From positions 124,001 to 188,000 of the forward strand of contig NZ_JANHDJ010000001.1 of the NCBI RefSeq assembly GCF_024494645.1: DNA of 64,000 nt. Direction: 5' to 3'. Shown piece by piece: positions 7,847 to 61,834 of this stretch. The translations under genes and the position numbers were made by a program. Within the stretch, counting starts at the first letter, position 1. Each line of letters begins with the position of its first letter. The stretch comes from Halohasta litorea. GTDB lineage: Archaea; Halobacteriota; Halobacteria; Halobacteriales; Haloferacaceae. The notes beneath the pieces are model-generated. The model ran no database searches, was not told where the DNA came from, and saw nothing but the letters and a program-made list of their open reading frames with translations.

Positions 7847-7919
7847 GTCCCGTTAGGGTAGTGGACTATCCTATTGGCTTGCGGAGCCAGTGACCGGAGT
7901 TCAAATCTCCGACGGGACG
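7847..7919 (+). tRNA. tRNA-Arg (anticodon GCG)
   Basis: 73 nt. Acceptor stem GTCCCGT pairs with ACGGGAC; the D arm has GGG...GTGG; anticodon stem TTGGC/GCCAG closes loop TTGCGGA, giving anticodon GCG, which reads CGC; the T arm is CGGAG-TTCAAAT-CTCCG; the discriminator is G. No intron is present and CCA is not encoded. Its last 13 nt are duplicated downstream (see repeat entry). Confidence 0.93.
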
Positions 7920-8014
7920 TTCGTTCTTTCGGACTGCTTCGCTTCGCTCAGTCTCTCACGTCCCGTCTTGCTCCACGCTCACGTTCGTTCGCGTGGAACT
8001 CCGACGGGACGTTC
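7907..8014 (+). repeat. tRNA-Arg tail: direct and inverted copies of the tRNA 3' end
   Basis: A 16-nt direct repeat (7907-7922 and 7999-8014) covers the last 13 nt of the tRNA plus 3 nt downstream. Between the copies lies an inverted 10-nt copy, ACGTCCCGTC (7958-7967), which can pair with 8003-8012 or with the tRNA's own 3' end at 7911-7920. Inside that stem is a second one, TCCACGC/GCGTGGA (7972-7978 and 7991-7997). Upstream is a small GACTG/CAGTC hairpin around TTCGCTTCGCT (7932-7953). Confidence 0.9.
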
Positions 8015-8143
8015 TTCCACGGCACAACACTCTGAGAGCCCTCTGTGGCCTTGGTCTCTATACCGTAGACGGATTTTCGAGGTATAGAAACCATTATACA
8101 ACCCTCTACATCCATTTGTATTATTATTCGAATCATTAATTCT

Positions 8144-8162
8144 CTAAATAAGTATACATTTA
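8144..8162 (+). promoter_or_regulatory. Promoter of FxLYD lipoprotein gene
   Basis: CTAAATAAGTATACATTTA gives overlapping TATA-like options 24-42 nt upstream of ATG 8186, in a very AT-rich leader. Confidence 0.5.
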
Positions 8163-8185
8163 GCGACAGGAAATGACAGAAAGAT

Positions 8186-8611
8186 ATGAAGCGTAGACGA
8201 TTGCTTGTAGCAAGCGGGACCGTGCTTACACTCACTATCGCAGGATGTAGTGGAGATACTGACGGCGACGGACGGGAACGATCAATCGGTGGAGATCGCG
8301 AATCTGGATCAGATGAGGGAGAAGGTGAATCTGAGCAAGACGTTGAACTACTTGATCACGAGCTTTATAATGAGGGCCAATTTGACGTTGGCGTTAGCGG
8401 TACCTTAGAGAACGTTTCTGGTGAAGAACTGTCCTATGTTGCGGTTGAAATATTCTTTTTAGACTCGGACGGAACTCAAATCGATGAGGGCCTCGATAAC
8501 ACCACTGACCTCGCTCCCGAGCGTCGCTGGGAGTTCGATGCTATGTACTTGGGCGATGAAGCAGACCGAATTGATACCTACGAAATTGAAACGGACGTCT
8601 CTAACTTCTAG
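8186..8611 (+). CDS. FxLYD-domain lipoprotein, low-GC gene
   Basis: 141 residues. The N-terminus MKRRRLLVASGT...LTLTIAGC is a signal peptide with twin arginines and a lipobox ending in Cys at about residue 21, so a Tat-exported, lipid-anchored surface protein is likely. An acidic Gly/Ser/Glu linker (about 22-52) leads to a domain with an FxLYD-like pattern: DHELYNEGQFDVGVSGTLEN, then YVAVEIFFLDSDG. Such domains are extracellular beta-sandwiches of unknown ligand. Codon usage is AT-richer than all neighbours, which suggests recent transfer. Confidence 0.8.
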   Translation: MKRRRLLVASGTVLTLTIAGCSGDTDGDGRERSIGGDRESGSDEGEGESEQDVELLDHELYNEGQFDVGVSGTLENVSGEELSYVAVEIFFLDSDGTQIDEGLDNTTDLAPERRWEFDAMYLGDEADRIDTYEIETDVSNF

Positions 8612-8694
8612 TTACCGTTGTTTTGATCAGTCTCTTACTCTCGTGAACACTGGTATCCGTCGCCGACCTAATTTTTGGCGTGGTTTTGTCACCA

Positions 8695-17728: not shown

Positions 17729-18723
17729 GCCGATCGCCTCCGGGCCAGCAGTGCCATCGCAAGCAGGGCGACGAGGCCGACCGCGAGGCCGAAGCCGGGG
17801 GTCTCTTCGCTCGTGTTCGCCTCTCCGCGATCACGGGCGGTCTCCTCGCCGGGTTCGGACTCGAAGTCCGAAGCCTCGAAGGCCACTTCCTCTTCCGTTT
17901 CGTCGGCGCTGATCCGCTCGCTCGGGTTGAGGTTGGCGACGCTCTGGGCGGAGTCGACGTGGACCCCATCGCGCCAGAGGACGGCGTCGACGTAGTAGTT
18001 GTACTCGTTGGGAACGCTCACCTCGGCGTCGACAGTGGCGGTGCGCCCGGCGCGAATGTCGCCGACGGGGACGGTCACGCGGTCGGCGACGACGTTCGAC
18101 TCGGCCTGTCTGGCGGTGAACGTCACTTCGAGATCGCTGGTCTGGGCGTCACCCTCGTTGGTCAGTGCTCCCGAGAGGTCGAGGCGTACCTCGCTGTCGT
18201 CGGCCGAACCGATGGCGACCGACACCGGTTGGACCGCGCCCGTATCGGCGAACTCGACGTTCGATTCGGCGTAGGCGGGCGTCAGGGCTTCGAGGCCGCT
18301 GACGCTGCGTGTGGCGACATCGACGCGCTCGCCGTCGCGGAAGACGATCGTCTCGATCCGGTAGCCGCCCTCGCGGTCGACGGTGAGGTTGGCTCGGACC
18401 GGCGTTTCGCGGTCGCCCTCAAGCAAGCCGACGTCGACGCGCCGCTCGGTTGCGACGAGGTTCGACTCGCTGTCGGTCGCCCGGAACAGCACGGTCACGT
18501 TCTCGGTCGGGTTCCCGAAGTGGCTGAGTCTGGCCTCGACGCCCAGGGTGGCCGTCTCGCCGGTCACCGCGCCCGGCGAGATGGGGACCTCCTCGATGTC
18601 GAGATTCCCCGGCCGGAGGTCGTCGGTCGGATCGGCCAGGGCGTCGGGAACCGCGACGGCGGCGACACCCGAGGCCACGACCACGACGATGGCCGCGGCG
18701 ACGACTGTCTTTTCGAGATTCAT
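17725..18723 (-). CDS. PGF-CTERM surface protein (DUF7490-like)
   Basis: 332 residues. An N-terminal signal helix (TVVAAAIVVVVASGVAAVAV) leads to two tandem beta-sandwich units of similar layout (about 45-165 and 170-275), both with VTVLFRA/VTFTAR and FRDGERVDVAT/WRDGVHVDSAQ. An acidic linker follows. The C-terminus TPGFGLAVGLVALLAMALLARRR is a PGF-CTERM tripartite signal recognised by archaeosortase A, so the mature protein is lipid-anchored at the cell surface. Family name is from memory. It lies between the regulator and copA. Confidence 0.8.
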   Translation of the reverse strand: MNLEKTVVAAAIVVVVASGVAAVAVPDALADPTDDLRPGNLDIEEVPISPGAVTGETATLGVEARLSHFGNPTENVTVLFRATDSESNLVATERRVDVGLLEGDRETPVRANLTVDREGGYRIETIVFRDGERVDVATRSVSGLEALTPAYAESNVEFADTGAVQPVSVAIGSADDSEVRLDLSGALTNEGDAQTSDLEVTFTARQAESNVVADRVTVPVGDIRAGRTATVDAEVSVPNEYNYYVDAVLWRDGVHVDSAQSVANLNPSERISADETEEEVAFEASDFESEPGEETARDRGEANTSEETPGFGLAVGLVALLAMALLARRRSA

Positions 18724-61690: not shown

Positions 61691-61761
61691 GCGCCGTTGG
61701 TCCAGTGGTAGGACAGAGCCTTCCCAAGGCTCTAGCCCGGGTTCAATTCCCGGACGGCGCA
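61691..61761 (+). tRNA. tRNA-Gly (anticodon CCC)
   Basis: 71 nt. Acceptor stem GCGCCGT pairs with ACGGCGC; D arm GTCC-AGTGGTA-GGAC; anticodon stem GAGCC/GGCTC closes loop TTCCCAA, giving anticodon CCC, which reads GGG; T arm CCGGG-TTCAATT-CCCGG; discriminator A. No intron and no encoded CCA. Its 3' end is copied in the tail. Confidence 0.94.
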
Positions 61762-61834
61762 CTCCTTCGTCGTGCGCCGTCCAACGTCCCACTCGCTCAC
61801 TCCGCTCGCTCGCGGGACTCCCGGACGGCGCACT
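61748..61834 (+). repeat. tRNA-Gly tail: direct and inverted copies of the tRNA 3' end
   Basis: A 16-nt direct repeat (61748-61763 and 61819-61834) covers the last 14 nt of the tRNA plus 2 nt. An inverted 11-nt copy GTGCGCCGTCC (61772-61782) can pair with 61823-61833 or with 61752-61762 in the tRNA itself, the latter across a 9-nt loop with CTTCG. The inner stem GTCCC/GGGAC (61786-61790 and 61814-61818) holds ACTCGCTCACTCCGCTCGCT. TTTT follows. Confidence 0.92.

Follow-up and report, generated by a model that had tools for sequence, protein, structure and literature searches.

Gene-free units behind haloarchaeal tRNA genes: probable small modules of recombination at the tRNA 3' end

The window, a stretch of 64 000 nucleotides from the Halohasta litorea genome (contig NZ_JANHDJ010000001.1, positions 124,001 to 188,000), carries a tRNA-Arg(GCG) gene at 7847-7919 (Rfam RF00005, 54.9 bits), which anchors the feature described here; this gene, its unit and the second tRNA and unit of the window described below lie on the forward strand. 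The sequence CTCCGACGGGACGTTC is present twice in identical form, at 7907-7922 and 7999-8014, 92 nt apart. The tRNA-side copy comprises the 3' strands of the T stem and acceptor, the discriminator and the TTC behind it, and the distal copy repeats this tRNA 3' end downstream. Between them ACGTCCCGTC (7958-7967), an inverted copy of the acceptor 3' strand, the discriminator and the next base, is the exact reverse complement of GACGGGACGT within both direct copies. A preliminary description of the locus had reported the 16-nt repeat and the 10-nt inverted copy complementary to either direct copy, and both are exact; the repeat does include the acceptor end and 3 nt of tail, although it holds the 3' strand of the T stem only and not the whole T arm. 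We define the unit as reaching from the end of the tRNA through the last base of its second 3'-end copy. Here this is a gene-free 92-bp unit of the form termed type I below (7920-8011), made up of tail, inverted copy, stem-loop and second tRNA 3'-end copy, and orthologous units are found in relatives. A stem-loop read from the sequence (GACTG...CAGTC, 7932-7953) occupies its early part, while an inner stem (CCACGC...GCGTGG, 7973-7996) lies between the inverted and direct copies. In orthologues the inverted copy co-varies with the tRNA end (CGTCCTGAC, CGTCCGGAC).

Another tRNA of the window, tRNA-Gly(CCC) at 61691-61761 (tRNA calls by ARAGORN/Rfam), is followed by a like unit, a second type I unit of 71 bp (61762-61832) with its inverted copy at 61772-61782 and its direct copy TCCCGGACGGCGCACT at 61748-61763 and 61819-61834. 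Throughout the 3.81-Mb genome, the 13-nt core of the tRNA-Arg(GCG) end occurs three times, two of them at this locus; the third copy (C23:81847) lies inside a reading frame with no tRNA nearby and was taken as chance. Read backwards, the pattern of this core has no occurrence in that genome. Among curated RNA families only tRNAs match in the window at the Rfam gathering score, and an ARAGORN call of tRNA-Ile(AAT) at 18029-18114, which had no Rfam support, was dropped as probably false. Downstream of the tRNA-Arg unit, positions 8030-8690 have a GC content of about 41-50% and contain a 141-aa lipoprotein-like reading frame (8186-8611), found in this genome only among the 40 genomes searched. 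In one relative (G003), sequence resembling the next conserved gene follows almost immediately after the second tRNA copy.

The preliminary description had proposed looking for the same pattern behind other tRNAs and in orthologous tails, and both searches were productive. In a uniform count, the 3' end of the matching tRNA recurs within 300 nt in 19 of 49 tRNA tails of the own genome, against 3.2% of 2222 swapped tRNA/tail pairs, and 20 of 29 orthologues of the window's tRNA-Arg(GCG) carry a copy within 400 nt. Applied to two congeneric species, this count gave 16 of 43 and 18 of 44 tails, and a haloarchaeon from a different family had copies in 16 of 31. Two outgroup genomes, from the same phylum but outside the order, had none (0 of 15 and 0 of 19), with swapped pairs scoring in 2.1% of 188 and 12.6% of 318. 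In the haloarchaeon of the other family and in the two outgroups the counts cover a subset of the tRNA loci (30 of 46 and 30 of 101 matches), neighbouring tRNAs on those loci included. With a score threshold of 14 or more, and six ARAGORN rows (introns or false) removed beforehand, 20 of 50 tails in the own genome contain a copy of their tRNA end, as do none of 50 control stretches (+700 to +1000) and 1.1% of the 552 pairs swapped within the genome. One of the 20 positive tails (L050) is the adjacent tRNA of a cluster. This cluster (C13:9140-12733) sits on a 13-kb contig that also carries an integrase gene, and the contig is possibly a virus or plasmid. In three of the four haloarchaea, more than half of the tails are without a unit.

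The units are mostly 60-200 bp long and follow a common order of tail, inverted copy, interior and direct copy, with a first stem-loop and a palindromic interior. Two forms can be distinguished. In type I the direct copy runs from the 3' strand of the T stem and measures 13-16 nt, and the inverted copy corresponds to the acceptor end. In the commoner type II the direct copy extends from the T loop to the discriminator (about 21-22 nt), and the inverted copy corresponds to the T loop and about five further bases; these units start with a stem-loop, often in a GAAC...GTGAG frame, and draw their interior from several recurrent classes. Across 74 type II units, most of positions 62 to 73 in the direct copy are the same as in the tRNA. 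The inverted copy still matches in about 91% of units at position 62, but this drops to 53% at position 65 and comes near background beyond 67. Thirteen distinct 44-nt type II palindromes keep, with few exceptions, their arms, a bulged G, two G-C pairs and a tandem GA/GA step, while their apical stem shows paired changes (C-G/G-C, A-T/G-C, G-C/C-G/T-A/A-T). Because these features are kept while both sides of the apical stem change together, the fold of one strand seems to matter in the type II set, be it as DNA or as RNA.

Such folds would also suit an RNA element, in which the tail is cotranscribed and the inverted copy pairs with either the tRNA end or the second copy and so steers 3' maturation, or in which hairpins end or protect the transcript, with selection acting on the fold. 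At the window locus the predictions are in keeping with the maturation switch put forward in the preliminary description: the transcript folds better than shuffled sequences (z -3.93), and the probability of the acceptor stem is 0.99 before the inverted copy, 0.04 with it and 0.88 once the second copy is present. The corresponding values for five orthologues, restricted to those whose inverted and second copies were found by exact match and from predictions that ignore salt, kinetics and processing, are 0.99/0.00/0.06, 0.93/0.93/0.10, 0.82/0.00/0.28, 1.00/0.23/0.02 and 0.99/0.51/0.43. Since these five orthologues keep the acceptor stem at 0.02-0.43, rescue by the downstream decoy is no conserved property, and the proposed switch holds as a predicted fold of the window locus without extending to the tested relatives. 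Furthermore, a switch does not predict that the pairing copy of type II erodes while the direct copy stays tRNA-like. The many unit-free tails, the differences by whole blocks between neighbours (see below) and the lack of any Rfam family besides tRNA at gathering score likewise speak against an RNA element, which we consider unlikely.

A pattern for type II units that makes no use of the tRNA found at least 120 stretches in the genome collection. Among the matches listed we examined 80 loci, a set chosen by the type II pattern and therefore silent on the frequency of type I. Nearly all belong to the class Halobacteria, spread over many genera. A tRNA lies directly upstream at 70 of the 80 by script and at two more (L156 and L162) on inspection; the tail units of L131 and L164 stand 3.1 and 1.9 kb away from their matching tRNAs, two loci (L109 and L112) are at contig edges, and four are non-haloarchaeal chance hits. 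The gaps at L131 and L164 hold reading frames and are apparently later insertions. A phylum-wide sample of 392 genomes was divided by hand count into 81 of the own order and 311 others, and the type II pattern is present in 54 of the former and none of the latter; read backwards it has no hit in the sample. Viral contigs gave five hits to the pattern, which were judged chance (low-GC coding sequence, or a tRNA array on a non-haloarchaeal viral contig), and blastn of the window unit against phages returned weak tRNA-like and chance matches only. On this comparison of sequences, the feature in the window is a member of a large haloarchaeal family of gene-free units that lie directly behind many tRNA genes.

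Related units differ between close relatives as whole blocks. For three species of the own genus, eight tRNA comparisons (the rows of which still include the rejected tRNA-Ile(AAT) call) show the flank after the direct copy matching the relative's flank directly behind the tRNA; the pattern is clearest for Asn, Met, Arg(cct) and Gly(ccc), and the flank scores of half the comparisons (Met, Ser(cga), Gly(gcc) and Gln) are weaker, at 18-22. For example, a 150-bp unit stands behind tRNA-Asn in one species and is missing from the other, with flanks that match from the very first base. In one species a 105-bp type II unit separates tRNA-Gly(CCC) from a type I unit, which in the window's genome follows the tRNA directly. 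Similarly, among orthologues of the window's tRNA-Arg, the type I unit lies directly behind the tRNA in L071, and in L073 a complete type II unit comes first (score 61.5 versus 9.5). The reverse order, type I before type II, is also found. As for the window's own unit, its insertion was not caught because the nearest relatives carry it too. Presence against absence is compatible with gain or with loss, and ordinary recombination between the repeats would give the same picture of loss.

Among 248 distinct tails, a set partly selected for having units, 154 have a copy, 49 have two or more and 13 have three or more. In the 49 multi-copy tails the tRNA-proximal copy is the more tRNA-like in 25 and the farthest in 3, with 21 ties (sign test on 25 of 28, one-sided, about 1.4e-5 by our own arithmetic). 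Insertion next to the tRNA would explain this polarity, and so would gene conversion in which the tRNA corrects the copy closest to it.

Palindromes are prone to template switching, and tandem arrays with repeated units do occur (L057 and L060), the latter with a second full tRNA-Arg; its two complete tRNA-Arg(GCG) genes are about 380 nt apart inside an array of tail units. Such arrays would be expected if the repeats expanded with no site-specific recombination at all, the tail being duplicated by unequal crossing-over or by template switching at palindromes and lost between direct copies. By itself, however, expansion cannot make the first unit, the two defined copy lengths or the interiors common to several tRNAs, and copies are present in 0 of 34 tails of the two outgroups. 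We regard this origin as very improbable.

The left part and the interior of the units can be compared separately. For the same tRNA across species, Val(tac) scores 0.92 in the left part and 0.34 in the interior, Lys(ttt) 0.78 and 0.42, and Gly(gcc) 0.87 and 0.69; Tyr shows the opposite, with 1.00 in the interior and 0.47-0.49 in the left part, although some Tyr pairs are non-orthologous because each genome has two Tyr genes. The baseline from different tRNAs has 95th percentiles of 0.67 and 0.71. An identical 26-nt interior stands behind tRNA-Arg(CCT) and tRNA-Leu(TAA) of one genome, the sole such pair among the units of three genomes. Judged by these sequence comparisons, left part and interior assort independently and interiors are exchanged. 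In one instance an interior also appears inverted: behind tRNA-Ser(TGA), the interior of Haloferax denitrificans is the inverted form of the first-unit interior of Haloferax prahovense, and it sits behind a left part like that of the second H. prahovense unit. Among 85 pattern hits the reading direction agrees with that of the tRNA in 69 and opposes it in 6, and for 10 there is no tRNA in reach; the other five antisense hits are of a class that regularly reads antisense, and the inversion is thus a single case.

Integrated elements with genes of their own are also found at tRNA genes of this genome. An element of about 5.8 kb lies behind tRNA-Arg(TCT) (L326, C28:338900-358850), and its integrase is 60% identical to that of the pleolipovirus SNJ2. 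Its far end repeats 14 nt of the tRNA, and these 14 nt recur in a type I unit that comes next; because the repeat precedes the unit, the element entered between the tRNA and the unit. Behind tRNA-Ala(GGC) there is a 9.8-kb element repeating 16 nt. The integrases of the own genome, as found by a PF00589 search, are located away from the window unit. Two species share a pair of oppositely oriented integrase genes behind tRNA-Glu(TTC) (L328 and L330), and a search of about 40 kb of the own genome and 20 kb of the relative found no distant direct copy of the tRNA-Glu(ttc) end.

The two gene-bearing elements could favour a reading of the units as independent scars, each the remnant of a provirus or integrative plasmid that entered a tRNA and then lost its genes. 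Haloviruses and plasmids enter at tRNA ends and leave repeats of 13-43 nt, according to PMC7911831, which gives 13-bp haloarchaeal provirus att sequences equal to tRNA 3' ends, and to PMC3119063, which describes partly duplicated tRNAs (22 and 43 nt) at proviruses as well as deletions that run between direct repeats; archaeal att sites are covered in a review, PMC8371274. Separate decays, in contrast, would not yield the same short interiors behind different tRNAs and in different genera, nor paired stem changes, nor arrays of two kinds in either order. The inverted copy is absent from the ends of both gene-bearing elements and from the attP regions of Halfgib1 and HHPV4, which were located by tRNA match; the stretches of SNJ2 and HRPV9 gave no core with the tRNA set used. 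Since the compared elements and attP regions share the core but neither the inverted copy nor the other unit ends, no autonomous parent was identified in this small sample of two integrated elements and two haloviral attP regions. Independent scars are already disfavoured, and we hold them to be quite improbable. Of the three suggestions in the preliminary description, the scar of an att-site integration nevertheless comes nearest, because copies of the tRNA 3' end bound the unit and related units are present or absent in relatives as exact blocks. What falls away is a decayed provirus end, since this type of sequence recurs behind many tRNAs and genomes and the compared element ends are without the inverted copy.

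We propose that the units are small non-autonomous modules, in two forms, which recombination at the tRNA 3' end adds and takes away, a reading to which we give a probability of about two in three. A putative site-specific recombinase, supplied in trans, would recognise tRNA 3' ends and join the unit's copy to the tRNA, such that the tRNA stays whole and its old end is displaced outward. New units would then enter adjacent to the tRNA, and recombination between direct copies would delete a unit. The inverted T-loop copy of type II may serve as a further core site for exchanging or inverting interiors. That an enzyme drives the mobility, that a given case is a gain or a loss, and what class the enzyme would belong to are inferences from comparison. 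The sequences compared showed neither an excised circle nor an excision event, nor any recombinase at work on a unit.

If this is correct, about two fifths of the sampled haloarchaeal tRNA genes carry tiny modules that come and go while the tRNA is left untouched, a source of variation exactly where viruses integrate. In the open-licence PubMed Central literature no description of gene-free units in tRNA tails was found, and the modules would form a class of tRNA-anchored repeats new to the literature searched. They would also offer a ready system for finding a recombinase that moves gene-free DNA at tRNA ends. The proposal would account for a puzzling repeat that might otherwise be taken for a riboswitch, and it carries a warning, namely that in these genomes a repeat of the tRNA 3' end is by itself no evidence for a provirus.

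Among known systems, tRNA-targeting integrative elements with tyrosine integrases, such as SNJ2-like pleolipoviruses and haloarchaeal proviruses, resemble the units in targeting the tRNA 3' end, in having a core at both ends and in leaving the tRNA whole. At each border of the window unit the tRNA 3' end is repeated in direct orientation, next to a whole tRNA, and precise empty sites in relatives are found for related units, the nearest relatives of the window unit carrying it themselves. The type I copy of 13-16 nt agrees in length with the cores of the two own-genome elements (14 and 16 nt) and of the Halfgib1 attP (13 nt annotated). Unlike these elements, the units have no integrase or any other gene (at 92 bp the window unit has no room for one), are mostly 60-200 bp long, form arrays and contain an internal inverted copy of the tRNA end, which the examined elements and attP regions are without. 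The units share with MITEs their shortness, the lack of genes, the palindromic inverted repeats, the many copies and, presumably, movement in trans. They differ from MITEs in lying only behind tRNA genes and in having ends that are the tRNA's own sequence, and ends common with an autonomous element were not found in the small sample of two elements and two attP regions. REP/BIME palindromes are short, intergenic and present in many copies, whereas the units are confined to tRNA tails, have tRNA-specific arms and are bounded by tRNA copies. In integrons the entry site is fixed, each unit ends in a folded palindrome that has one constant extrahelical base, the newest unit lies nearest to the entry, and excision occurs via direct copies. 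Integron cassette arrays (attI, attC) and the units described here are alike on paper: type II interiors have the bulged G and paired changes, which would suit a folded recombination site, and the tail copies (25 versus 3 in favour of the proximal one) may reflect polarised insertion or else gene conversion. The units differ from integrons in that their entry site is a tRNA gene, that they have no cassette genes and that their core is the T loop and not the integron core sequence. We put forward, as a bolder and rather doubtful extension, that haloarchaeal tRNA genes might be the entry points of an integron-like system, in which gene-free, hairpin-closed cassettes with inverted and direct T-loop cores would be inserted beside the tRNA, stacked and lost, and their interiors exchanged or flipped, by a tyrosine recombinase that acts on the T-loop cores, possibly on folded single strands.
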